A DNA stretch of 32,717 nucleotides, taken from positions 1-32,717 of the forward strand of contig CAMOZY010000024.1 of NCBI GenBank assembly GCA_946631295.1, given 5' to 3'. Both the position numbers and the translations under genes were made by a program. Shown one piece after another: positions 7,594 to 32,717 of this stretch. Origin of the DNA: an uncultured Lachnospiraceae bacterium (lineage in GTDB: Bacteria > Bacillota > Clostridia > Lachnospirales > Lachnospiraceae). The notes beneath the pieces were generated by a model. That model saw nothing but the letters and a program-made list of their open reading frames with translations. It was not told where the DNA came from and did not search any database. Position 1 is the first letter of the stretch; every line of letters starts with the position of its first letter.

Positions 7594-8733
7594 TTATTTG
7601 GAATTAGGCCTTATATCACCTGTTTTCGGAATGGACGCATCCTTCTGGATGGGAGGCATCAGATAAGCAGTAACTCTGTTTCTTCCGCCTTCCTTAGATG
7701 CATAAACGCCTGCATCGGCATATTTGAAGGCATCTGAGAATGTGGTCGGATATGTGGCGCTTACGATACCACAGCTGAAGGTTACGCTTCTGTCGGTGAA
7801 CTTATACTTGATCTTTCCGAATCTTTCTCTCAGATCATCCATGAACTTGATATGATCATGATAATCGCCGCCGTCGAATACAAAGATGAATTCCTCACCG
7901 CCGTAACGTCCGGCTACAATGTTTTCCTTCAGGCTCTTGTTAACGGTATCACCGAATTTCCAGAGAACAACGTCACCGTTCTTATGTCCGTACGTATCGT
8001 TGATGCTCTTGAAGAAATCAAGGTCAACGACTGCAAGTGAAACAGGATGATCTTCGGATGCATCAAGCAGGAATATATCAGCCTTCTCCTGTGCGTAAGG
8101 ACGTGTGTGCAGATAGGTGAGCTGGTCTGTCTCAAGTCTCTGTCTGTAGCTGTCCTGCTTCTCATTTGCCTCAAAGACGATGTTCTGCATCTCCTTGTTG
8201 TAGATGATCATGTTACGGGATACGATCGCGCCGCAGGCAAGTACCATCATTACAACAAGCATGCTTTGAAGATAATAAACATAATCTTCGGGATACTGGA
8301 TCATCTCATAAAAAGCCGAAATAGCAACCGTGATTATCGAAAATACCGTGATCTTAAACAGCAGATGGGTATCATGGAATACGCTGCAGAACAGAACTGC
8401 AAGGATGGGAAGGCACCAGAGTGAAACATAGTATCCGTTCCAGAAGGAAATGCTCGCACCGATCGTAGCGCATGCAAAAGAACACACAGCGCACTTCTGG
8501 TCGTTTCCGACATTCTCCGAGGCATTTACAATCTTGGCGACAAAAGAAGCCACCAGATTGATGATAGTAGGTATGATAACCCTCAGAATGACGTAAAGCT
8601 TGATATCGTAATCAATGGTATGCATCACGGCACTGACGATACAGATACCAAGACTGACGATAAATCCCAATATCGTAAGCTGGAAATAAACCTTGATTAT
8701 TTTATTTCTCGCAAGAGTTTCTGCTTTATTCAT
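7594..8733 (-). CDS. Membrane-bound diguanylate cyclase (GGDEF)
   Basis: This 379-residue protein has about six N-terminal membrane segments (residues 15-190), a short coiled linker, and a C-terminal GGDEF domain. The active-site signature is GGEEF, preceded by DLDFFKSINDTYGHKNGD and followed by FSCGIVSA, so it should make cyclic di-GMP. The usual RxxD inhibitory site five residues before the signature is absent. The start at 8733 was chosen because longer versions run into the divergent MATE gene. The ribosome site is weak. The membrane part matches no sensor family I can name. Confidence 0.88.
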   Translation of the reverse strand: MNKAETLARNKIIKVYFQLTILGFIVSLGICIVSAVMHTIDYDIKLYVILRVIIPTIINLVASFVAKIVNASENVGNDQKCAVCSFACATIGASISFWNGYYVSLWCLPILAVLFCSVFHDTHLLFKITVFSIITVAISAFYEMIQYPEDYVYYLQSMLVVMMVLACGAIVSRNMIIYNKEMQNIVFEANEKQDSYRQRLETDQLTYLHTRPYAQEKADIFLLDASEDHPVSLAVVDLDFFKSINDTYGHKNGDVVLWKFGDTVNKSLKENIVAGRYGGEEFIFVFDGGDYHDHIKFMDDLRERFGKIKYKFTDRSVTFSCGIVSATYPTTFSDAFKYADAGVYASKEGGRNRVTAYLMPPIQKDASIPKTGDIRPNSK

Positions 8734-8815
8734 AGATATTTCAATTTTAATATCGAGGTAGTAAAATATCAACCGATTAAGAGAATAAACTTTCTGACAA
8801 TTTAAGGGATAGATT

Positions 8816-10138
8816 GTGAAGGATCTTACAAAAGGAAAACCTCTGAAGATCATATGTTTCTTCGCTCTTCCGATACTCATCGGAAGTCTGTTCAACCTCG
8901 CCTATTCCCTGGCTGACATGAAGATCCTGGGGCTTTTCATGGGGAAGGACGGAATCGCTGCCGCAGGTTCGGTCTCCGGGCTTTATGATCTTACTAATTC
9001 CTTTATGATGGGAATGACAAACGGGTTCGGTGTGATCACCGCGATGTATTACGGATCCGGTAACATGGAAAAGACCAGACATAATTTTGCGGTATCCATA
9101 TCTCTGGCATGTATCTGTGCTCTTACCGTTTCCGGCATCTGCCTGCTCTTTTTTGACAGGATACTTGATATACTGAATGTCCCTCCCGAAGTCAGGGAAA
9201 GTGCTTCTCTGTATATAGGGATAATGATCTCAGGTCTTATATTCTCGGCTCTTTATAACTGCCTGGCAGCATCCCTCAGAGCTGTAGGCGATGCCTACAC
9301 CCCTCTTATCTTCCTCGTAATCTCAACGCTTTTAAATACCGGGCTCGATGTTCTTTTTGTAGGAGGATTTAATCTCGGCACCCCCGGAGCAGCCATAGCT
9401 ACTGTCACAAGCCAGATCATCTGTTCCGGAGCATGCCTTGCTTATTCTTTTATCAGATATAAGGAACTTAGGTTCAGCCTTAAGGAAATGATCCCTCACC
9501 GGAAAGCAGGTCTCAGAATGCTCATGTCCTCGGGCATATCAATGGCTCTTATGAGCTCCATGGTCGCATTCGGAACGCTGTCACTTCAGACTGCCATCAA
9601 CACCCTCGGTGAAAACATTGTGGTTGCTCACGCAGCCACAAGGAAGCTTTCCGGCATATTCATGCTGCCCTTCGGAGTATTTGGAACCGCAATGGCCACA
9701 TACAGTGGCCAGAACTACGGAGCCGGCAGGAAGGACAGGATCAAAGAAGGACTCCGCGCTACCGTCGGGATTTCCTTTGCATACAGCCTCCTGTGTATGC
9801 TGGTAAGCTATACTATATGTCCGTCCATCATCAGGGCGATAGCAAGTACTGATGAGCATGAGATCATATTCAATGCAGTCAGGTATCAGAAGATAGACAC
9901 TCTCTTCTACTTCGTTCCTGCCGTGATATCCATCTTCAGAAATTCTCTGCAGGGAATGGGTGAGCACAGACTTCCCGTTATTTCCAGCTTTGCCGAGCTT
10001 CTTGGAAAACTCCTGATAGCCCTCTATCTGACACCGGTTCTTAAATACACAGGTATCATTCTGGCAGAGCCCATCGTGTGGATCATAATGGTCATTCCGC
10101 TCATATATGGCATGTGGAAAAGACTTAAGAATGAATAG
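8816..10138 (+). CDS. MATE family multidrug/sodium antiporter
   Basis: This 440-residue protein has about twelve membrane segments and the MATE layout: KDLTKGKPLKIICFFALPI at the start, the repeated internal halves, and the SLRAVGDAYTPL motif near residue 160. It probably exports cationic drugs or metabolites using a sodium or proton gradient. A GTG start follows AAGGGAT. It is divergent from the GGDEF gene with 82 bp between starts, so the two share a promoter region. The integrated element begins just after its terminator. Confidence 0.92.
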   Translation: MKDLTKGKPLKIICFFALPILIGSLFNLAYSLADMKILGLFMGKDGIAAAGSVSGLYDLTNSFMMGMTNGFGVITAMYYGSGNMEKTRHNFAVSISLACICALTVSGICLLFFDRILDILNVPPEVRESASLYIGIMISGLIFSALYNCLAASLRAVGDAYTPLIFLVISTLLNTGLDVLFVGGFNLGTPGAAIATVTSQIICSGACLAYSFIRYKELRFSLKEMIPHRKAGLRMLMSSGISMALMSSMVAFGTLSLQTAINTLGENIVVAHAATRKLSGIFMLPFGVFGTAMATYSGQNYGAGRKDRIKEGLRATVGISFAYSLLCMLVSYTICPSIIRAIASTDEHEIIFNAVRYQKIDTLFYFVPAVISIFRNSLQGMGEHRLPVISSFAELLGKLLIALYLTPVLKYTGIILAEPIVWIIMVIPLIYGMWKRLKNE

Positions 10139-19657: not shown

Positions 19658-19700
19658 GTCGGAGTGACTAGATTCGAACTAGCGGCCTCCGCCTCCCTAA
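19658..19700 (-). repeat. Right attachment site (tRNA-Pro 3' half)
   Basis: Second copy of the 43-bp direct repeat. Here it is continuous with the tRNA 5' half, so the element supplies the 3' end that keeps the tRNA gene intact. Confidence 0.9.
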
Positions 19701-19733
19701 GACGGCGCTCTAACCAAACTGAGCCACACCCCG
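19659..19733 (-). tRNA. tRNA-Pro (anticodon AGG)
   Basis: The sequence folds as a full cloverleaf of 75 bases with discriminator A: acceptor CGGGGTG / CACTCCG, D stem GCTC/GAGC, anticodon stem CCGTC/GGCGG with loop TTAGGGA, T stem GCTAG/CTAGT with loop TTCGAAT. The anticodon reads AGG, for CCU proline codons. CCA is not encoded. The 3' half is the attachment site of the element. Confidence 0.88.
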
Positions 19734-21671: not shown

Positions 21672-21717
21672 TGCTATAATGTATTGAAATGCATTTAATA
21701 GGAAATGATGGCATTTC
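21672..21717 (+). promoter_or_regulatory. Promoter and leader hairpin of the HD-GYP receptor
   Basis: TGCTATAAT (21672-21680) is an extended -10. GAAATGC (21686-21692) and GCATTTC (21711-21717) pair at the start of the predicted transcript. The ribosome site GGGAGGAAT follows before the ATG at 21756. Confidence 0.55.
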
Positions 21718-21755
21718 AAATCTCTATCCTTCATGAGGCGGGAGGAATTCATAAA

Positions 21756-24700
21756 ATGAAAAACAAGAAGACATGGCAGATTGTTCTTTTTATTGCAATG
21801 TGCGTATGTGCGAATCTGGGCGGAAAGGTATTTGCTGTCAAGTTAGGTTTGCCGCTATGGGCCGACTCTTTCGGAACCGTGGTCTGTGCATATTTTGCGG
21901 GACCCGTGTGCGGAGCCATAGTCGGCATGACATGCAACCTTGCATATACTACCATTAATCATCTGTCAGCAGCTTATTCGGTCACCAGTATCTTCATCGC
22001 TCTGATCATCGGCTACGCTTCAAAAAAGAAATGGTTCGACCGTTTTTACGGTTTCATGAAAGCCGTATCTCTCGCAATGCTCACCGCAATTATCGTTTCG
22101 ATTCCTGTAAACATGATCCTTTCAAACGGATATACAGGGAACAGATGGGGAGACGGAGTGATCGAATATCTCCTCAGTAAGAACTGGCCCTTCTTCCTTT
22201 GCTGTGTCATGGGACAGTATGCCATAGAATTTGTGGACAAACTTCTCACAATAGCTGCATTGTACGCATTCATACTTATTCGCCGTGCAAGAAAAGAAAG
22301 AAAAAACACTCAGGCTATTCAGGCCGGAACCGCTTCAGGAATTACCGGCATTCTCATCATCTCCGCTATTTTATCTCTTCTCACCCCCATCAGGTCCACT
22401 GCTGCTTCAAAATCGGAGTTAACGGATTATAATGACTACGTTCAGACAATATACAGCAGCAACAATGGTCTGCCCTGTGGTGAAGCCAATGCGATTGCCC
22501 AGACCAATGACGGAGTTCTCTGGATTGGAACATATGCCGGACTATATCGTTATAACGGACGAGAGTTTCGCTGGGTAGACAATTATGAATCAGTCAAAAA
22601 CGTCAACTGCCTTTATGTTGACGAAGAGGGGCGTCTCTGGATAGGAACCAACGATAACGGATTATCCATTGTGATCCGTGAAAAGGTTGTCAACGTACTC
22701 GACCAGTCAAGTGGTCTTCCCTCAAATTCCGTAAGATGCATCACTCACGCATCGGATGGTTATTACTACATAGGAACCACGGGCAGCATGCAGATCCTCG
22801 TGATGAACAACGGTCTGAAGGCTGCAAACACACTGGATGAGATCTACTATGCTGACAGCATCACGGCAGATGAGAGCGGCCATGTAGCAACTATCGCTTC
22901 GGATGGCTGTCTTTTCCTGTTAAAAGAAGGCAAAATAGTCAATTCACTCAAGCTCCCATATAATCAGGAAATCTTCAACTGCTGTGAATTTTCTCCTGAC
23001 GGAAGACTCATGGTAGGATCTTCTACCAATAACATCTACTGCTATGATATTTCGAAGGACAAATTCAAGCTTCTCGATACCATCACATGTGAAGATGTAA
23101 ACAGCATCAACAATATTCACTATATCAATGACGGCACCCTGTTCATCTCAACAGACAGCGGTGTTTCCTACATTGATGCAAATGGTTATCACCGTATCAA
23201 TACCAACGATTTCAACAACTCCATCGATAACATGCTCTATGACTACCAGGGCAATCTTTGGTTCACCTCCTCAAGACTGGGACTTCTGAGAATGGCCAAG
23301 TCCCCCTTCAAGGATATCTATGGTTCACTTGGCATGGAAAGACGCGTAGTCAACACCATAGTATCCTGGCAGGACTGTTATTACATCGGTACCGATAATG
23401 GGCTTGATGTCGTTGACAGATCCTGCAGCAGGCAGATTGAAAACGAGCTTACTGAAGAGCTGGACGGAAGACGTATCCGCTGCATGTATGTTGATGAAAA
23501 GGATCACCTGTGGGTCTGCACATACGGAAACGGACTGATGGAGTTTTCTCCGAATGGTGAATCATGGACATATAATGCGAACAGCGGAAGTTTCGGTAAC
23601 CGTGCACGTATAGTAACCGGTCTTTCTGACGGAACCATCCTTGCAGCAGGTGACACCGGTATCAGTTTCATAAGCAACCACACGATTGAAAAAACCATTC
23701 GTAATGAAGACGGTCTTATAAATTCAATGATCCTTACCGTTACCGAAAGAAGTGACGGAACTATCCTTGCAGGTACGGACGGCGACGGCATAGCTGTAAT
23801 TGAGAATGGAGAAGTCATCGACATGCTTACCGTTGAAGACGGACTCAGCAGCGGTGTTATCCTCAGAACGATAAAGGATCCGAAGTCCGAAGGAGTATTT
23901 GTCGTCACCAGTAACAGCCTGTGCTATCTTGATCCGAGCGGAACCATCAGAGTACTTGATAAATTCCCTTACTTTAATAACTATGATATCTGGCCCAAAG
24001 ATGAGGACACACTCTTTGTCATGTCCAGTGCCGGTATCTACGTTGTAGAGCGTGACGAGCTTGTTGCAGGAAGTGATATAGCATGGGAACTTCTGGATGC
24101 AAGAAGAGGTCTCGGAACCTCTCTGACCGCCAATTCCTGGAACTATTACAACGGAAACGGCGAGCTCTTCCTTCCCTGCGATACAGGTGTTTACTGCATA
24201 GATGTTGACAAATACAACAGTGATGTCCGCTCCTACCGTATGCAGCTGGCTTCTGTCATGCTTGATGGAATCAATCATCCCATCGACCGCATGGGTGAGA
24301 TAACAGTCGGTCAGGGTGTTGACAGGATTGAACTTTCTCCCGAGGTTCTCAATTATACGATCCAGGAGCCTAATGTCGGTTACTATCTCGAAGGATTCGA
24401 TCCAAGATGGACGATAATCTCCCAGAACAATCTTAACAACATAACATATACCAATCTTCCCGCGGGCGAATACATCTTCCATCTCGCTATTTTCGACAGT
24501 GCGGGTGAACATGTTCTTGAAGAGAAAAAATTCACACTCGTCAAAGTCGGTGAACTGTATGAGCAGCGCGGATTCATCTTCTATATGCTGCTTCTCCTTT
24601 CATTGACCATAGTGTGGTTCACATGGCTGATCGTGCAGAGACAGATCAACCAGCAGCAGATCAAACTGAACATGGCCAACGAAACAGTCATGGCTATAGC

Positions 24701-25412
24701 TAACGCAGTCGACCAAAGGGATGTACGTACTCATCAGCACTCTACCCGTGTTGCTGAATATTCGGTTCTTATCGCTCAGGAAATGGATTGCTTCAAATGG
24801 TGGCAGCGCAGCAAGAAGCTTTCCAATCTCAAGAAAGCTGCCCAGATGCATGATATAGGCAAGATAGGTATTCCTGATGCGGTTCTCAACAAGGTCGGAA
24901 GACTTACCGATGAAGAGTATGCAATGATGAAATCCCACGTTCTTCGCGGTGCTGAGATTCTGAAGGACTTCACCCTGGTCGAAAACGTTCTGGACGGAAC
25001 AAAATATCACCATGAACGCTTCGACGGGCGCGGTTATCCAGATGGATTAAAGGGCGAAGAGATTCCTCTTTTTGCAAGGATCATAGGTGTAGCAGATGCT
25101 TTCGATGCAATGACCTCCAATCGTATCTACCGCAATCACATGGATACCGATTATGTCATGAAGGAAATGGAAAGAGGCAGAGGTACTCAGTTTGATCCGG
25201 AGCCTCTTGATGCATTCCTCAGACTCGTCGAAAAGAAAGTCATCAATCTCGATGAACTCTATGCCCAAAAGCGTGCTGAGATCCAGCAGGCAGATCAGGA
25301 ACAGCAGGAAGAGCTCAAGAGACGTGTAGAAGAAGACAAGAAGATTCAGGAAGCAGAAATGCAGAAGGATAAAAAGGATGCTTCCGCCGATAAGGAAGGA
25401 GCAAAGGAATGA
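21756..25412 (+). CDS. ECF-S-like / beta-propeller / Y_Y_Y / HD-GYP receptor
   Basis: This 1218-residue protein has four parts. Residues 1-205 are about six membrane helices resembling ECF transporter S components (GGKVFAVKLGLPLWADSFGT). Residues 215-850 are a periplasmic-type propeller of repeats like GVLWIGTYAGLYRYNG (Reg_prop). Residues about 855-930 are a Y_Y_Y domain. A membrane helix (940-960) leads to an HD-GYP domain (about 985-1160) with HxxxxR, HDIGKIGIPD near 1031 and HHERFDGRGYPDG near 1088. It should degrade cyclic di-GMP when the outer domain senses its ligand. The tail is a charged coil. The start follows GGGAGGAAT; its stop overlaps the BMP gene (ATGA). Confidence 0.9.
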   Translation: MKNKKTWQIVLFIAMCVCANLGGKVFAVKLGLPLWADSFGTVVCAYFAGPVCGAIVGMTCNLAYTTINHLSAAYSVTSIFIALIIGYASKKKWFDRFYGFMKAVSLAMLTAIIVSIPVNMILSNGYTGNRWGDGVIEYLLSKNWPFFLCCVMGQYAIEFVDKLLTIAALYAFILIRRARKERKNTQAIQAGTASGITGILIISAILSLLTPIRSTAASKSELTDYNDYVQTIYSSNNGLPCGEANAIAQTNDGVLWIGTYAGLYRYNGREFRWVDNYESVKNVNCLYVDEEGRLWIGTNDNGLSIVIREKVVNVLDQSSGLPSNSVRCITHASDGYYYIGTTGSMQILVMNNGLKAANTLDEIYYADSITADESGHVATIASDGCLFLLKEGKIVNSLKLPYNQEIFNCCEFSPDGRLMVGSSTNNIYCYDISKDKFKLLDTITCEDVNSINNIHYINDGTLFISTDSGVSYIDANGYHRINTNDFNNSIDNMLYDYQGNLWFTSSRLGLLRMAKSPFKDIYGSLGMERRVVNTIVSWQDCYYIGTDNGLDVVDRSCSRQIENELTEELDGRRIRCMYVDEKDHLWVCTYGNGLMEFSPNGESWTYNANSGSFGNRARIVTGLSDGTILAAGDTGISFISNHTIEKTIRNEDGLINSMILTVTERSDGTILAGTDGDGIAVIENGEVIDMLTVEDGLSSGVILRTIKDPKSEGVFVVTSNSLCYLDPSGTIRVLDKFPYFNNYDIWPKDEDTLFVMSSAGIYVVERDELVAGSDIAWELLDARRGLGTSLTANSWNYYNGNGELFLPCDTGVYCIDVDKYNSDVRSYRMQLASVMLDGINHPIDRMGEITVGQGVDRIELSPEVLNYTIQEPNVGYYLEGFDPRWTIISQNNLNNITYTNLPAGEYIFHLAIFDSAGEHVLEEKKFTLVKVGELYEQRGFIFYMLLLLSLTIVWFTWLIVQRQINQQQIKLNMANETVMAIANAVDQRDVRTHQHSTRVAEYSVLIAQEMDCFKWWQRSKKLSNLKKAAQMHDIGKIGIPDAVLNKVGRLTDEEYAMMKSHVLRGAEILKDFTLVENVLDGTKYHHERFDGRGYPDGLKGEEIPLFARIIGVADAFDAMTSNRIYRNHMDTDYVMKEMERGRGTQFDPEPLDAFLRLVEKKVINLDELYAQKRAEIQQADQEQQEELKRRVEEDKKIQEAEMQKDKKDASADKEGAKE

Positions 25413-26608
25413 AAAGGGTTTATTATTTAACCATAGTGACATGCCTTGCCATGTTATCTGTTTTCATCATTTGTTTCAGACTTATGGATCTTTCGAAAGG
25501 AAAGGACCACCTGACCGTAGGATTCGTCTACGACAATGATGAAAGCACTCCATATACATACAACTTCTCTCTTGCCAAGGATGCCGTTGTAAAGCAGTAC
25601 GGTGACAGGGTGGATATCATTACATGCAGTAACGTAATGGATGATGAGATGGAAGAACCAATCAGGGAACTTGCAGAACAGGGCTGCGATATCATCTTTT
25701 TCAACGGATACAGTGAACTCGTAAGAGAACTTGCTCCCGAATATCCGGACATCCAGTTCTGTCAGACATCTTATATGGACATGAGTGATCAGAAGGTTCC
25801 TGCCAATTACCACACCTTCAAGGGTGAAGCATATCAGGGTAGATATGTCAGCGGAATCGCAGCAGGCATGAAGATAAAGCAGATGATCTCGGAAGGAACC
25901 ATTACCGAAGATCAGGCAGTCGTAGGATTCGTAGCTGCATTCCCAACATCCGAGGTTATTTCCGGATATACAGCATTTATACTTGGTGTCCGCTCAATAG
26001 TCCCGACAGCCGTGATGCATGTCTGCTATACAGAAACCTGGAGCAGCTACGCACTTGAGAAAAAAGCAGCTCAGCAGCTTATAGACGAAGGTTGTGTCAT
26101 CATCTCACAGCATACAGACACCATCGGACCTGCAATCGCATGTGAAGAATCCTCTTCCGAAAAAGAGGTCTACTTTGTGGGATGGGGCGAAAGCATGTCG
26201 GAGGTAGCTCCCGGAACATCACTTGTCACATCAAGAATATGCTGGGAACCCTATGTTCTTTCTGCCGTTGAAGCTGTTATGACAAACAAAAGCATCGAAT
26301 CCGTTGTTGTTGGAAAGATTCACGGAAATGATGCATATGCAGGATTTGCTAACGGATGGGTCGAGATGATAGATATGAACCAGCAGGTTATGGCTCCCCG
26401 AACCGAGGAAGCAATGAACAGCATAATAGAACAGTTCACACGCGGAAACAGCAATTTCGTATTCCGAGGCGACTACACCGGTGTTAATCCGAACAATCCT
26501 TCTGACACGATCAATCTGAAAACAGTCTATACGGAAAATGAAAACACGTCCTATCCTCTCTTCAATTACATCCTTACGGATATCATAACCATCGAAGAGA
26601 TAAAATGA
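25409..26608 (+). CDS. BMP-family substrate-binding protein (nucleoside type)
   Basis: This 399-residue protein has an N-terminal hydrophobic helix (residues 4-25) without a clear lipobox, then the BMP/PnrA fold: LTVGFVYDNDEST near 37, GCDIIFFNGYSE, YQGRYVSGIAAGM, VVGFVAAFPTSEVISGYTAFILG and CVIISQHTDT. Family members bind nucleosides for ABC import. No permease or ATPase gene follows; instead the gene overlaps the HD-GYP receptor gene by 4 bp. It is therefore more likely a ligand-binding partner of that receptor than an importer part. A convergent terminator follows. Confidence 0.88.
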   Translation: MKRVYYLTIVTCLAMLSVFIICFRLMDLSKGKDHLTVGFVYDNDESTPYTYNFSLAKDAVVKQYGDRVDIITCSNVMDDEMEEPIRELAEQGCDIIFFNGYSELVRELAPEYPDIQFCQTSYMDMSDQKVPANYHTFKGEAYQGRYVSGIAAGMKIKQMISEGTITEDQAVVGFVAAFPTSEVISGYTAFILGVRSIVPTAVMHVCYTETWSSYALEKKAAQQLIDEGCVIISQHTDTIGPAIACEESSSEKEVYFVGWGESMSEVAPGTSLVTSRICWEPYVLSAVEAVMTNKSIESVVVGKIHGNDAYAGFANGWVEMIDMNQQVMAPRTEEAMNSIIEQFTRGNSNFVFRGDYTGVNPNNPSDTINLKTVYTENENTSYPLFNYILTDIITIEEIK

Positions 26609-26685: not shown

Positions 26686-26722
26686 AGAAGCTCCTCCGCA
26701 AATGTCGGAGGAGCTTCTATGT
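26686..26722 (+). terminator. Terminator after the BMP gene
   Basis: AGAAGCTCCTCCG (26686-26698) and CGGAGGAGCTTCT (26706-26718) form a 13-bp perfect stem, followed by ATGTTTT. It may serve both convergent genes. Confidence 0.88.
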
Positions 26723-27582: not shown

Positions 27583-27653
27583 AGCGGCTAACGGGAGTCG
27601 GACCCGCCTCCTCAGCTTGGGAAGCTGATGTACTACCGATATACTATAGCCGC
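27583..27653 (-). tRNA. tRNA-Gly (anticodon CCC)
   Basis: A 71-base cloverleaf: acceptor GCGGCTA / TAGCCGC with discriminator U, anticodon stem TCAGC/GCTGA and loop TTCCCAA, anticodon CCC. CCA is not encoded. TATAAT at 27664-27669 (minus strand), overlapping no gene, is a likely -10 box just after the hydrogenase stop. Confidence 0.88.
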
Positions 27654-27682: not shown

Positions 27683-29191
27683 TTATTTTCCACCGAAAAC
27701 TTTCTTCACAAGTTCTTCGTCCATATGCCCGTGGCGGTTCATGGAAAATTCATTCATAGGATAATCCTTAAGGTTTTCAAGTATCTTCCTGTCATCAGCT
27801 TTTGCCAGAAGATTATTACGGGCCTTTGTTATCTCCGCTTCCGTCATATGCTTGGAAGGTCCGCCGACACATCCTCCCGAGCAGATCATACCCTCTATGA
27901 AATCTTCTTCAAGCCTTCCTGCCTTAAGCAAAAGAAGTGCCTTCTTACACTCATCTCCTCCTGCAACTTTCAGCAGTTTTATATCAGAGGTATCTTCTCC
28001 TCTTTCCTTCATGCATTCAAGAACAGCCGCTGCAACACCTCCGCTTGATGCAAACTTTTTTCCGAAGGCGGATGCCATCTGATAATCGCCATCAACATGC
28101 TTAAGTTCTATGTCTTTTGATCTGAGAAGTGCACGAAGCTCTCCAAATGTAATTACATAGTCCGCATTATCGGGAATTCTTTCATCTCTTGATTCAGCCT
28201 TCTTGGCAATGCAGGGTCCGATAAATACAGTCACACAGTCAGGATGCGTAAGCTTAAGATATCTTGATACAGCACACATCGGAGATACTGTTGTTGACTT
28301 ATTTTCCTTGTACTGGTCAGGGAAATGCTTGCGAAGCATACTGATGAAAGCAGGACAGCATGAAGTTGTCATCTTTCTGCCCTCTTTCAGTGCCTCACTC
28401 CATTCATATGACTCAAATGCAGCAGTCATATCACCGCCCAGTCCGACCTCCACCATATCCGAGAAGCCGAGTTCAAGGAGTGCCGCTTTTATCGAAGCCA
28501 TATCAATGTCTTCACCAAACTGTCCCTCGATAGCCGGAGCAACCATGGCGATAATTTCCTTATCAGCCAGGATATCCCGAATGATAGGAACAAGATATGT
28601 TTTGGAGCCTATGGCTCCGAAGGGACATTTATGTATGCAATGTCCGCAGTTGATGCACTTGGTTTCATCTATCTTACAGATACCATATTCATCATATGTT
28701 ATCGCCCCAACAGGACATGCTTTTTTGCAGGGACGCTCAAGATGAACTATTGCACTGTAGGGACATGCCTTGGCACACATACCGCATTCCTTGCACTTTG
28801 CAGGATCGATATGCATCCTTACATCACCGGGAGAAATTGCACCGAATTTACATGAATTAAGGCATGCCTTACCGGGACAGAATCTGCAGTTATCAGTTAC
28901 GGAATAAGCTGAAAGAGGACATTCATCACATGCAGCATGAATAACCTGAACAATATTATCAGAGCCCAGATTATCCGATGTATCCTGACCGCATGCAAGT
29001 CTGATACGCTCTCTTACTATTTCCCGCTCTTTATAAATACAGCATCTGAAAAGAGGCTTGGGCCCCGGAATGATCTTCTCTACAAGAGCAGCCTTGGTAT
29101 CTTCGTTTAGATTCGAGTCCCAGGCAAGCCTGCAGACCTCTTCCATAATTGTATGTTTAAAACGTACTATGCCTTCGTCGTTAGTAACCAT
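27683..29191 (-). CDS. Monomeric [FeFe] hydrogenase, group B-like
   Basis: This 502-residue protein has an N-terminal cysteine cluster (DECPLSAYSVTDNCRFCPGK) and two ferredoxin 4Fe-4S motifs (CKECGMCAKACP, CINCGHCIHKCP), then the H-cluster domain. Its three signatures are TSCCPAF near residue 272, IGPCIAKKAES near 325, and EGMICSGGCVGG near 431. These are the group B (TIGR04105-like) variants of the classic motifs. It may evolve or sense hydrogen; group B enzymes are little studied. AAAGGAATTTAC precedes the ATG. It starts 16 bp after the CHASE2 cyclase gene, so they share a transcript. Confidence 0.9.
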   Translation of the reverse strand: MVTNDEGIVRFKHTIMEEVCRLAWDSNLNEDTKAALVEKIIPGPKPLFRCCIYKEREIVRERIRLACGQDTSDNLGSDNIVQVIHAACDECPLSAYSVTDNCRFCPGKACLNSCKFGAISPGDVRMHIDPAKCKECGMCAKACPYSAIVHLERPCKKACPVGAITYDEYGICKIDETKCINCGHCIHKCPFGAIGSKTYLVPIIRDILADKEIIAMVAPAIEGQFGEDIDMASIKAALLELGFSDMVEVGLGGDMTAAFESYEWSEALKEGRKMTTSCCPAFISMLRKHFPDQYKENKSTTVSPMCAVSRYLKLTHPDCVTVFIGPCIAKKAESRDERIPDNADYVITFGELRALLRSKDIELKHVDGDYQMASAFGKKFASSGGVAAAVLECMKERGEDTSDIKLLKVAGGDECKKALLLLKAGRLEEDFIEGMICSGGCVGGPSKHMTEAEITKARNNLLAKADDRKILENLKDYPMNEFSMNRHGHMDEELVKKVFGGK

Positions 29192-29207
29192 GTAAATTCC
29201 TTTATTA

Positions 29208-31022
29208 CTATTTTATCGAATTAAGTTCAAGCACTTCGAAACCATCGGCCTTACCCTTGAGCTTGATGGTTGCTCCGAGTGATGTGTATGTAATGCGGTC
29301 TCCCAGGGCATCTGCAACAGAACGGCTGATGTAGATCTTGCCACCTGGTGCATTGGCTTCAAGCCTTGCAGCGGTATTAACAGTATCACCTATCGCAGTG
29401 TAATCCATATGCTTTTCGGCGCCCATATTACCTACGACTGCAGGACCGAAATTAACACCGACGCCTACCTTGAGTTCTTCACCGATCTCTTCCTTGAGTT
29501 CATCGGATACCCTTGCAGCTCCTTCAATGATTCCCACTGCGGTTTTGACAGCATTCATAACCGGATCTTCCTGAGGAAGAGGTGCTCCCCAGAATGCCAT
29601 CATAGCATCACCTACGAACTTATCAAGAGTTCCGCCGGTCTGCTCAACACAGTCACTGGCCATTGTCAGATATTTGTTCAGAATATGTACTACCTGTTCC
29701 GGATTAAGTCTCTCGGACATCGTGGTAAATCCTCTGACATCTACAAACAGCACAGCTATATCGCAGGTCTTACCTCCAAGAGAAAGGTTCTCTACACCTT
29801 CTTTTAAAATCTCCGAAACAATCTCAGGAGCCACGTATCTTTCAAATGTCTTTGTTACTCTCTGCCTTTCAAGAGCGGTCTTCACATAATGAATGACAAT
29901 GGATGCAATATAGAGCACCACCACTCCGACAGGAATCCAGAGAGGATGGAGAACATGTCCGACACCGCCGATATTCACATTGTAGGCAGCGTAATTTATA
30001 GCCGATATAAGAACAATAACAGAAACAGTCAGTATGGTTGCTGTTTTGATATTGGTCTTCTGGAACAGATAAAAAAGGAAGAAGCATACCAGGAAAAGGA
30101 TAATACCCTGAGGCAGTTTTGAAACCTCAGTTTTAAAATCCGAATCAAGTATCTGCTGTACAACATTGGCCTGATACTCAACTCCGTACATCTGCCTTGC
30201 TCTGTCGATAGGAGTAAAGTAAGCATCCTGAAGTCCTACGGTATAAGGTCCTATGAACACGACCTTGCCTGCATAATCATCGGGTGAGATATTACCGCTC
30301 AAAAGATCCGAAAAAGAAAAACCATCATAGTATCCGCCAGGTTTTGCGGAATATGATACATAGTATCTTCCGATGGAGCTTGCAGGTGGCATCTGTATTT
30401 CCTTTCCTGTGCTCTCACCGTAGATCATTGCTGCGGTAGAAGCCATGGAATAAACTCTCTCGCCATCCGGTCTGATATACAGGAGTGAATGACGAAGTAT
30501 TCCGTCAGAATCATACATAGCGTTGATATGACCCTGATGTGTCACTTCCTTAAGAGCATCAAAAGGTTCGTCATATCCGAGCACAGAATATCTGTCAAAA
30601 TATGTACTTCCGTTCTCGGTAACTACCTGAACTCCGAATTCTGCAAACGTTGCTACTACGACGTTACCGAGATTATCTGCAGCATCAACAAGCCTCTGAT
30701 CTGCTTCAGGAGTTGATGTTCCCGAAAAAAGAACGTCGATTGCCACAACTGCAGGAGCATTTTCAGGATCTTCACCAAGCTTTTCAAGAGCTTGTGCAAT
30801 GACATCTCTTCCCCAGGTATTGTAAGGTCCGAGTTCTTCAATAGATTTATCATCGATACCTATTACGATGATCTCACCATCAAGTGCTCTTGATGACTGA
30901 TACCAGGTATCCTCCATCCATGTGTCTGCATTGTCCAGCACTCCTCCCGCGGCGATGATCAGAGTCACTGCCAGCGAGGCAAGGAGTGAAATGATTATTG
31001 GATTTGAAAATAGTTTTTTCAT
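29208..31022 (-). CDS. CHASE2 domain class III adenylate cyclase
   Basis: This 604-residue protein has an N-terminal helix, an extracellular CHASE2 sensor (about residues 30-300, with IVIGIDDKSIEELGPYNTWGR and VVAIDVLFSG), three membrane helices (about 305-390), and a class III cyclase domain. The domain keeps metal aspartates in FVDVRGF near 422 and GDAMMAF near 470, the Lys of DKFVGD, and the D-T-N-R set in YTAIGDTVNTAARLEA. It should make cAMP in response to an outside signal. No ribosome site precedes the ATG. It is followed closely by the [FeFe] hydrogenase and preceded by a repeat-rich surface protein. Confidence 0.92.
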   Translation of the reverse strand: MKKLFSNPIIISLLASLAVTLIIAAGGVLDNADTWMEDTWYQSSRALDGEIIVIGIDDKSIEELGPYNTWGRDVIAQALEKLGEDPENAPAVVAIDVLFSGTSTPEADQRLVDAADNLGNVVVATFAEFGVQVVTENGSTYFDRYSVLGYDEPFDALKEVTHQGHINAMYDSDGILRHSLLYIRPDGERVYSMASTAAMIYGESTGKEIQMPPASSIGRYYVSYSAKPGGYYDGFSFSDLLSGNISPDDYAGKVVFIGPYTVGLQDAYFTPIDRARQMYGVEYQANVVQQILDSDFKTEVSKLPQGIILFLVCFFLFYLFQKTNIKTATILTVSVIVLISAINYAAYNVNIGGVGHVLHPLWIPVGVVVLYIASIVIHYVKTALERQRVTKTFERYVAPEIVSEILKEGVENLSLGGKTCDIAVLFVDVRGFTTMSERLNPEQVVHILNKYLTMASDCVEQTGGTLDKFVGDAMMAFWGAPLPQEDPVMNAVKTAVGIIEGAARVSDELKEEIGEELKVGVGVNFGPAVVGNMGAEKHMDYTAIGDTVNTAARLEANAPGGKIYISRSVADALGDRITYTSLGATIKLKGKADGFEVLELNSIK

Positions 31023-31046
31023 AATTTGTATTTATTTTTGACATCC

Positions 31047-31070
31047 CGAAAGCCCCTTTCGGGGCTTTCG
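31047..31070 (-). promoter_or_regulatory. GAAA-capped hairpin between surface protein and cyclase
   Basis: CGAAAGCCCC and GGGGCTTTCG form a perfect 10-bp stem with a GAAA tetraloop on the minus strand. No T-run follows on either strand, so it is not a classical terminator. It lies 22 bp downstream of the surface-protein stop and 25 bp before the cyclase ATG. RNA processing or partial termination is possible. Confidence 0.55.
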
Positions 31071-31091
31071 TTGATAAAAATAATTAATCAA

Positions 31092-32717
31092 TTACAAAAC
31101 TGTTACGGTTCCGTCTGAATTTACCTCTATCGTAATAGGATTCGCTCCAGGATATGTAAATACTAACTTATCGGTTGTAGTCTGTGACGCATCTACGTTG
31201 CAACCTCTGTATCTTTGACCACCGATATCCAAATCATAAGTTCCAGCCGTTCCTCCGGCATCACACCTAAATGATTGTCCATAAGTAACGTAAGTGATTA
31301 CTGAAAGGCCGGTTGCGTCAAATGTATTGTTTACCACTTCCTGCAGTGCTGCCATATTAGCGGGATTACTCGAATCAACTGCTACATCTACGCTGGGAGG
31401 ATTACCCGCAACGACATTACCAGTATAAGTTGCAGGACCATCTACAATAGTTTGAATCTGACCATAATTTCTCATGTAATGAGATATCTGCTCAACAGTA
31501 GTATTTGTATTTGAGACATCCATCGTAGTAATCTGAGATCCACCGGGCGTATTGCCATCTATAAATGCATTCGTCAAGTTAACATTTACCGGAGAGCCAT
31601 TCGCATCTACAACCTGTGAAGGAAGCGTTACGGAAGTAGTATCATTCGTAGATCCTCTGTTAATAAAAAACGTTGAGTTTGTGTCATCATAAGTCCCCTG
31701 TGTTCCATCATCAAATGTCACAGCATTTCCATCAACCTTGTTGGTGGTTGATGTGAATCCGTTATCATCTATTGTTCCGATAATGTGTGAGTTGCCTCCG
31801 TTACCGAATACTTCTATAGGTCTGGTATTATTCTGAATCTGGCCTACTCCCACAGCATACCAGTCTTTACCGTTAACATTATATGATCTTGTATTTTGAT
31901 TGTCATAATCAATGGAGAGATTACCGAAAGTAAAGTGATCATATGGAAATCCTCCTGAATTGGTCAGTATCTGTCCAACTTCCTGGGCACTTCCCGCCAC
32001 ACCAGTTTTAATTTCCATTGTCTTCTCGCCGGTTGTTTCAGTCTTGGCAATCGCCGTGGTTCCTTCTATCTCCACTCCCTGGTTATTGTCTGCAAATGTT
32101 CCGATATCGCTTGTTGTAGTAGTGAATGCTGTGGTATCAAGTTTAGTCACACCTGAATTAGAAGCAATTTCAACGTTACTAAGTGACAGGTTAACGGTCT
32201 GACCACTTTCATCAGTGATGGAAGCCGGCAAAGCAACAACACCGCTGGTATTTTTGGAGTCAATTCCGGTAATTTCCAGTTTAGTTCCATCATAATGAGC
32301 TTCAGCAACTATAGTACCACTACCGTCATCAATATTAACAATTCCGGTACCTTGAGCAGCAGTATTAGCCGGTGTGGTATTAGTATTCTGATTTGTACTG
32401 GTATTTTGGTTCGTGCTGGTATTCTGGTTCGTGCTGGTATTCTGGTTTGTGTTGGTATTCTGGTTAGTACTGGTATTCTGGTTAGTACTGGTATTCTGGT
32501 TAGTACTGGTATTTTGGTTTGTATTGGTGCTGGTATTCTGGGTCGTATTGGTACTCGTGTTGGTGCTGGTATTCTGGGTCGTGTTCGTACTCGTGTTTGT
32601 ATTGGTATTCTGAGTTGTATTGGTACTCGTGTTTGTATTGGTATTCTGAGTCGTATTAGTGGTCGTGTTTGTATTGGTATTCTGAGTCGTATTAGTGGTC
32701 GTGTTTGTATTGGTATT
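31092..32717 (-). CDS. Asn/Thr/Gln-repeat surface protein, C-terminal part
   Basis: The frame runs open to the window edge, so only the last 541 residues are seen; a TTG at 32231 is an internal Leu codon, not the start. The first 100 or so visible residues are repeats of NTSTNQ and NTNTNTSTNTTQ. Then come two related modules of about 190 residues, each with a LPxxxxDxxGxxV strand and a TNxxIxxxxxxxxITTMD motif, and a final module with two Cys. No LPXTG, membrane helix or choline-binding repeat closes the protein. It is probably exported; the role is unknown. Confidence 0.75.
   Translation of the reverse strand, partial: NTNTNTTTNTTQNTNTNTTTNTTQNTNTNTSTNTTQNTNTNTSTNTTQNTSTNTSTNTTQNTSTNTNQNTSTNQNTSTNQNTSTNQNTNTNQNTSTNQNTSTNQNTSTNQNTNTTPANTAAQGTGIVNIDDGSGTIVAEAHYDGTKLEITGIDSKNTSGVVALPASITDESGQTVNLSLSNVEIASNSGVTKLDTTAFTTTTSDIGTFADNNQGVEIEGTTAIAKTETTGEKTMEIKTGVAGSAQEVGQILTNSGGFPYDHFTFGNLSIDYDNQNTRSYNVNGKDWYAVGVGQIQNNTRPIEVFGNGGNSHIIGTIDDNGFTSTTNKVDGNAVTFDDGTQGTYDDTNSTFFINRGSTNDTTSVTLPSQVVDANGSPVNVNLTNAFIDGNTPGGSQITTMDVSNTNTTVEQISHYMRNYGQIQTIVDGPATYTGNVVAGNPPSVDVAVDSSNPANMAALQEVVNNTFDATGLSVITYVTYGQSFRCDAGGTAGTYDLDIGGQRYRGCNVDASQTTTDKLVFTYPGANPITIEVNSDGTVTVL
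32401..32717 (-). repeat. 18-bp and 36-bp tandem coding repeats
   Basis: Near-identical 18-bp units (six codons, NTSTNQ) repeat about eight times between 32401 and about 32530. Beyond that 36-bp units (twelve codons, NTNTNTSTNTTQ) repeat about five times to the window edge. All stay in frame. Copy number may vary by slippage. Confidence 0.85.

Follow-up and report, generated by a model that had tools for sequence, protein, structure and literature searches.

The 32,717-nucleotide stretch analysed here (the window; contig CAMOZY010000024.1 of assembly GCA_946631295.1, from an uncultured Lachnospiraceae bacterium) carries two overlapping genes, one for a membrane receptor that unites an ECF-S domain, a double beta-propeller, a Y_Y_Y domain and an HD-GYP domain, and one for a binding protein of the BMP family. 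With moderate confidence, we read the two genes as one receptor complex, in which the BMP protein would bind a purine nucleoside or base and the receptor would alter the breakdown of cyclic di-GMP. The initial annotation had proposed a ligand-sensing complex for cyclic di-GMP breakdown, and our results support it: we found neither a transporter partner of the BMP protein elsewhere in the genome, which is 91% complete, nor a lack of conservation of the gene pair, nor an N-terminal domain devoid of ECF-S similarity. The coordinates and domains that it had assigned to both products proved correct. The parts, as delimited here, are as follows:

21756..25412, + strand: receptor gene, 1218 amino acids (open reading frame, ribosome-binding sequence, Pfam/NCBIfam, structure models)
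21756..22310, + strand: ECF-S (S-component) domain, residues about 1-185
22311..22409, + strand: further hydrophobic helix ahead of the propeller, residues about 188-208 (hydropathy 188-206)
22425..24260, + strand: double beta-propeller, residues about 224-835
24261..24551, + strand: Y_Y_Y domain, residues about 836-932 (Pfam PF07495, fold comparison)
24567..24716, + strand: last transmembrane helix leading into a signalling helix, residues 938-987 in the model (hydropathy 941-959)
24651..25265, + strand: HD-GYP domain with the HDIGK and HHERFDGRGYP motifs (Pfam HD_5, solved relatives)
25409..26608, + strand: BMP-family binding protein gene, 399 amino acids (Pfam Bmp, matches to 3s99 and AtzT)
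25427..25483, + strand: transmembrane tether of the BMP protein, residues 7-25, without lipobox

The receptor open reading frame in full spans 21705-25412 (+), and the ATG at 21756 is the likelier start because it is preceded by a GGGAGGA ribosome-binding sequence. The start codon of the BMP gene overlaps the stop codon of the receptor gene by four bases (gaATGAaa). The initial annotation had given the same start and the same overlap.

Receptor architecture and the ECF-S head

The receptor matched HD_5 (2.3e-38), Reg_prop (4.7e-26) and Y_Y_Y (5.2e-10) in Pfam, and the fold of a double propeller with Y_Y_Y was assigned over residues 224-932. The helix ahead of the propeller was placed at residues 194-208 or 196-208 in the models, whose confidence is low there. 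HD_5 was the only output domain matched by Pfam in the receptor, with no histidine kinase, GGDEF or EAL. Solved relatives of the HD-GYP domain include 5z7c, 4mcw and 4r8z. HD, HHExxDGxGYP and other motifs form the metal site of HD-GYP phosphodiesterases; the window receptor carries them, and is predicted to have phosphodiesterase activity. Among 93 non-redundant receptors, the first metal-site pattern was present in all 93, HDIGK and ADxFDA in 92 each, and HHExx[DN]GxGYP in 88; in the remaining five, its P is replaced by M, I, K or V. As the genome of the window yielded 31 GGDEF matches, cyclic di-GMP is probably in use in this bacterium.

The statement of the initial annotation that a propeller with Y_Y_Y normally feeds a histidine kinase or GGDEF held in part: among the scanned ECF-S-propeller relatives, one ends in GGDEF (L206) and two in a kinase and REC (L209, L211), whereas one ends in HD-GYP and REC (L205). 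In the window's own genome, at C19, ECF-S-HD-GYP and propeller-histidine kinase proteins are encoded by adjacent genes. To judge from these sequences, the relatives show receptor parts that appear exchangeable. The C19 row (L083:1606-11291) encodes an ECF-S-HD-GYP protein (732 amino acids), a propeller-histidine kinase-REC-Hpt protein (1422), a REC protein (252) and an HD-GYP protein (802), that is, the same parts as in the window receptor, divided otherwise.

The N-terminal 215 residues of the receptor gave nothing above Pfam cut-offs. They were matched by the NCBIfam model NF045596 (CD3073 family putative ECF transporter S component; E 3.3e-17) with 62.7 bits, below the equivalog cut-off of 180 bits, under which the stand-alone relatives L227 (95.9 bits) and L236 (129.8 bits) lie as well. 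The best 22 fold matches of the AlphaFold model of this domain (mean pLDDT 86.3) among solved structures were ECF S components, 19 of them by title; 4huq, 4m5b and 4m58 we take to be such components. That a family is missing from these lists does not speak against it. Taken together, the family match and the fold matches demonstrate that the suspected ECF-S similarity of the N-terminus is real. In addition, the receptor and stand-alone ECF-S domains have in common the motif GxTGNxWGD, N20, P33, mostly W35, D37, D161 and K162, and the GxTGNxWGD loop is absent from ECF-S domains fused directly to HD-GYP. The receptor thus offers a clear example of how an ECF S domain, akin in sequence and not just in fold, has come to serve as the head of a receptor.

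Neither EcfT nor EcfA adjoins the window receptor, unlike the stand-alone relatives described below. We consider it very improbable that the receptor is a transceptor, the ECF-S domain of which still docks on the EcfT/EcfA module of the cell, so that transport rather than binding is reported. An EcfT-like gene is present in the genome, and a face of small residues (AXXXA) on helix 1 is used for EcfT docking; at positions 14 and 18 of this helix, the receptors of the window's kind (A-type) mostly have small residues (A 75%, C 67%), and the stand-alone domains P/G. However, the second kind of receptors (B-type) is bulky there (F/I/L and L), as the part of PMC11109136 drawn on here describes for S-fold receptors, and that paper speculates for 5TMR kinases that soluble extensions would limit toppling.

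Conservation of the gene pair and absence of a lipobox

The conservation of the pair was examined at 80 loci, the best among 422 found to be related to the ECF-S domain, all in named genomes, the titles of which comprise Lachnospiraceae, Butyrivibrio, and metagenome-assembled genomes labelled Clostridia, Ruminococcaceae, Oscillospiraceae, Eubacterium or Christensenellaceae. A BMP gene lies 3' of the receptor gene in 74 of the 80 loci; the other six are cut by contig ends, and in none is it missing. In 71 of these 74 the two frames are on the same strand and at most 120 bases apart, and the exact four-base overlap recurs in 67 of the 82 pairs with a placeable start. From the order, 392 genomes were drawn evenly; their counts, which come from a first look that scored at most seven or four candidates per genome and from receptor and BMP tables matched by eye, gave 18 receptors: 15 with an adjoining BMP gene of the clade, two cut by contig ends (G312, G277) and one without (C26), that is, 15 of the 16 that could be scored. 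Seen from the other side, 16 BMPs were found at 6e-186 or better, the next only at 1e-106, and 15 of the 16 adjoin a receptor, the sixteenth lying near a contig start. The pair is therefore conserved, and its recurrence in the named loci together with the recurring overlap argues that the observation is not due to chance. Among 391 genomes drawn evenly from the class, with at most seven candidates scored per genome, receptors were found in three, all in the window's family; the order draw has them in a further family too (f11). Within the genomes searched, the BMP protein accompanies one receptor clade only, none being present at the eight ECF-S-propeller loci L205-L212.

At the other three of the 74 loci (L097, L106, L113) the receptor frame is broken in the HD-GYP or propeller part and the BMP frame is open, which reflects either assembly errors or decay. 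A flotillin-like gene occurs near ECF-S-propeller-HD-GYP receptors at three loci (L047, L049, L082).

The outer part of the receptor, a double propeller with Y_Y_Y, is like that of the Bacteroides hybrid two-component systems BT4663, BT3049 and BT4673; unlike in those, HD-GYP replaces the histidine kinase, an ECF-S domain stands in front, and there is a BMP partner. That the propeller senses a glycan as in these systems, with the BMP protein and the ECF-S domain as accessory inputs, is distinctly unlikely, as BMP is the only constant neighbour family, no other occurring at more than 10 of 60 loci.

The second protein matched Pfam Bmp (PF02608) at 5.7e-25, with 88.4 bits against a cut-off of 24.1, and its nearest solved relatives are 3s99 (5e-26) and AtzT (6pi5, 1.6e-22). 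All 95 receptor BMPs have a hydrophobic N-terminal segment followed by 10-17 residues up to the binding domain. None of the 95 has a lipobox, as compared with 13 of 15 other BMPs; the two lipobox-free BMPs outside the receptor set form a tandem pair adjoining a hybrid histidine kinase (L058). The pattern used, which also demands that the Cys be followed by a small, polar or charged residue, was picked once the first result was known, and six long BMPs (658-685 amino acids) were excluded from both counts. A looser first pattern was rejected: it found a lipobox in 18 of the 80 A-type, one of the 15 B-type and seven of the 15 other BMPs, counts that are unreliable because a Cys lying within the membrane segment was accepted and forms such as LCAC were overlooked. 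A tree of 47 rows was built with 26 of the 95 receptor BMPs (11 A-type and 15 B-type, the latter 44-52% identical to the window BMP); in it, the receptor-linked BMPs form one side of a branch with a support of 100/100, apart from the ABC-ATPase-linked BMPs.

Of all alternatives, an ordinary transporter subunit that merely shares an operon with a regulator has, together with the transceptor, the lowest probability. The binding residues of the window BMP equal those of transporter-type BMPs, and an ABC transporter of the genome, at C56, is cut by a contig end, so that its binding protein is not visible; its permeases match none of the BMP loci. Against this, in the relatives transporter-type BMP genes are followed by an ABC ATPase gene (one by Pfam, 12 of 13 loci by similarity to that one), whereas the window BMP lacks a lipobox, overlaps the receptor gene by four bases and is exclusively paired with the receptor. 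As had been noted earlier, no ABC permease or ATPase gene adjoins it; the genes flanking the pair encode an LRR protein and a Bax1-I protein (Pfam). This is the single BMP of the genome, and no BMP-type permease was matched there by one permease query run without a positive control, the genome being 91% complete. Another transporter, at C3, has its own Peripla_BP_6 protein and a branched-chain-type ATPase. An ABC partner elsewhere in the genome thus did not turn up, though at this completeness one may have been missed. In the near-complete relatives G012 (98%) and G027 (99%), in which all candidates were scored, there is one BMP each, adjoining the receptor.

The tandem locus L058 (L058:5608-10340, genome G034), two lipobox-free BMP genes followed by the hybrid histidine kinase gene, looks like an independent BMP-based sensor; tandem BMPs also occur at G323:C19 and G406:C21. 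The long BMPs, at L059, L064, L067, L068, L069 and L070, have about 300 additional N-terminal residues, and in the three that were scanned (L059, L067, L069) no second Pfam domain scored above cut-off.

Around the pair, the following were found:

26686..26718, + strand: terminator-like hairpin of 13 pairs, 3' of the BMP gene
19659-19733 and 27583-27653, minus: two tRNA genes flanking the region

The hairpin, with its long stem, is the sole noteworthy one of five terminator-like sites in the region (shuffle mean 3.8), and promoter-like sites were not above chance (11 compared with 11.5 in shuffles). A riboswitch or other RNA control of the pair was considered and dropped, as the window gave just the two tRNAs at gathering thresholds. 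Elsewhere in the window, 27683-32231 (minus) encodes, head to tail, a 379-residue open reading frame, a CHASE2-class III cyclase and an iron-hydrogenase-like protein, and 7594-8895 (minus) a GGDEF protein of 433 amino acids.

Evidence on the ligand class

In the nearest solved BMPs the ligand is a base rather than a nucleoside: 3s99 was modelled with adenine and AtzT with guanine (PMC6834077). Among the AtzT site residues given in the part of that paper drawn on here, Tyr45, Glu165 and Trp194 correspond to Y49, E182 and W211 of the window BMP, and Asn218 and Asn220 are replaced by H235 and D237, as in 3s99. Conservation of the five window residues is 91-100% among 80 A-type BMPs and 100% among 15 B-type ones.

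The ECF-S domain points to the same ligand class independently. At the 13 nearest stand-alone ECF-S genes, EcfT adjoins in 11, mostly together with EcfA, and a nucleoside phosphorylase gene in nine; no such phosphorylase was present in 150 other loci compared. Ten stand-alone loci with longer flanks (L227-L236) have the phosphorylase in four cases, all already among the nine. The closer CD3073 relative L236 sits behind a RihC-like nucleoside hydrolase. Moreover, ECF S components of the QueT/QrtT type carry queuosine precursors (PMC11130926, in part), a precedent for purine-like nucleosides. The earlier guess of a nucleoside thus gained support from two independent sides, and the exact ligand of the BMP protein would lie within the nucleoside/base class.

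The rows of phosphorylase, S component, EcfT and EcfA genes at L184-L187, L189-L192, L194 and at L227, L229-L231 likely encode an uncharacterised ECF nucleoside transporter; judged by titles and abstracts, the open-access literature yielded no publication that treats an ECF transporter of the CD3073 family or one linked to a phosphorylase.

It is unlikely, though less so than the alternatives above, that the BMP protein reports a ligand other than a common purine nucleoside or base, such as a queuosine precursor, another heterocycle or a uridine-type nucleoside. Of seven AtzT residues, the window BMP has two replaced and two in a gap; queuosine precursors are carried by the QueT/QrtT components cited above; and the NCBIfam models rank the phosphorylase as uridine phosphorylase first, then as DeoD-type purine nucleoside phosphorylase, all below cut-offs. 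However, the BMP retains the Tyr and Trp that stack and the Glu that reads the base, and the two replaced residues match those of 3s99 with its adenine.

Several observations weigh against a purine-sensing complex of the two proteins. The AtzT residues Ser97-Phe98 map to the two-residue gap in the window BMP, and the five site residues are mostly kept in transporter-type BMPs as well, so they mark the site of the family and not the ligand of the receptor. The phosphorylase is missing from four of the 13 stand-alone loci, and the nine with it represent four genera of two families. In A-type ECF-S domains, two acidic positions of the stand-alone domains are changed (154 E to Q, 158 D to E). A paralogous receptor of the window's own genome, at C26 (L082:2992-6552, minus), is a second ECF-S-propeller-HD-GYP protein followed by a 423-residue zinc-ribbon open reading frame, without a BMP gene. 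Finally, mirror-tree correlations over 74 A-type pairs were 0.44 for BMP-propeller, 0.35 for BMP-ECF-S and 0.28 for BMP-HD, and fell to 0.26, 0.22 and 0.17 (standard deviation 0.05-0.07) when columns were equalised, with the propeller not clearly ahead, so that they do not name the docking domain.

Proposed mechanism and relation to known systems

In the complex of receptor and BMP protein that we favour, the tethered BMP would bind an extracellular purine nucleoside or base. Computation shows the architecture, the folds, the pairing of the genes, the missing lipid anchor and the conservation of the binding residues; the ligand, the docking, the part played by the ECF-S domain and the sign of the control belong to the proposal. 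We infer that the closed BMP would then dock on the outer part of the receptor, most likely on the propeller, and that Y_Y_Y and the last membrane helix would relay the change to the HD-GYP domain, which would alter cyclic di-GMP breakdown, up or down. The ECF-S domain may serve as a second, membrane-level site for the same ligand class, its transport role lost. More tentatively, the pair could be a two-site purine receptor assembled from two unrelated importers, a BMP without its ABC transporter and lipid anchor and an ECF-S without its motor, in which the BMP protein would hand the ligand to the ECF-S domain, or report together with it, and both would set cyclic di-GMP breakdown through a propeller of the hybrid two-component type.

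In its presumed operation, the pair is closest to NspS-MbaA of Vibrio cholerae, in which NspS signals through MbaA and import is ascribed to PotD1 (PMC8079147, in the part drawn on here). In both, the gene of an extracytoplasmic binding protein adjoins that of a membrane receptor with an inner part of the kind that forms or degrades cyclic di-GMP; NspS, however, binds polyamines and MbaA has GGDEF and EAL, whereas the window pair has a tethered protein of the BMP family and a receptor with ECF-S, propeller and HD-GYP. As in the 5TMR-LYT histidine kinases, an S-component fold forms the membrane input of a signalling protein (PMC11109136, in part). Unlike these, the window receptor has no PF07694 match (one relative, L206, matches at 2e-7), its model begins with helix 1 and lacks the extra N-terminal helix, its domain is directly related in sequence to an ECF S family, and the membrane domain is separated from the output by a propeller. 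In the main text of PMC11109136, the terms propeller, HD-GYP and binding protein do not occur. From BMP/PnrA binding proteins, AtzT and 3s99, with which it shares the family and most ligand-facing residues (PMC6834077, in part), the window BMP differs in that a tether replaces the lipobox and a receptor gene replaces the adjoining ABC transporter genes. From CD3073-family ECF S components (NF045596), the homologous domain with its GxTGNxWGD motif differs in being fused to a receptor, the stand-alone relatives lying mostly by EcfT and EcfA. The parts and the mode each have precedents, and no earlier description of the pair was found among titles and abstracts of the open-access literature. The pair thus combines known kinds in a new way and does not constitute a kind of its own.

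The tether in place of a lipobox is a simple sequence rule that may separate signalling BMPs from transporter BMPs. For most cyclic di-GMP enzymes no ligand is known, as stated for GGDEF and EAL proteins in the part of PMC8079147 drawn on here. The pair probably lets external nucleosides or their bases switch cyclic di-GMP, and as the BMP protein and the ECF-S domain independently point to one ligand class, a large family of rumen and gut receptors becomes directly testable.

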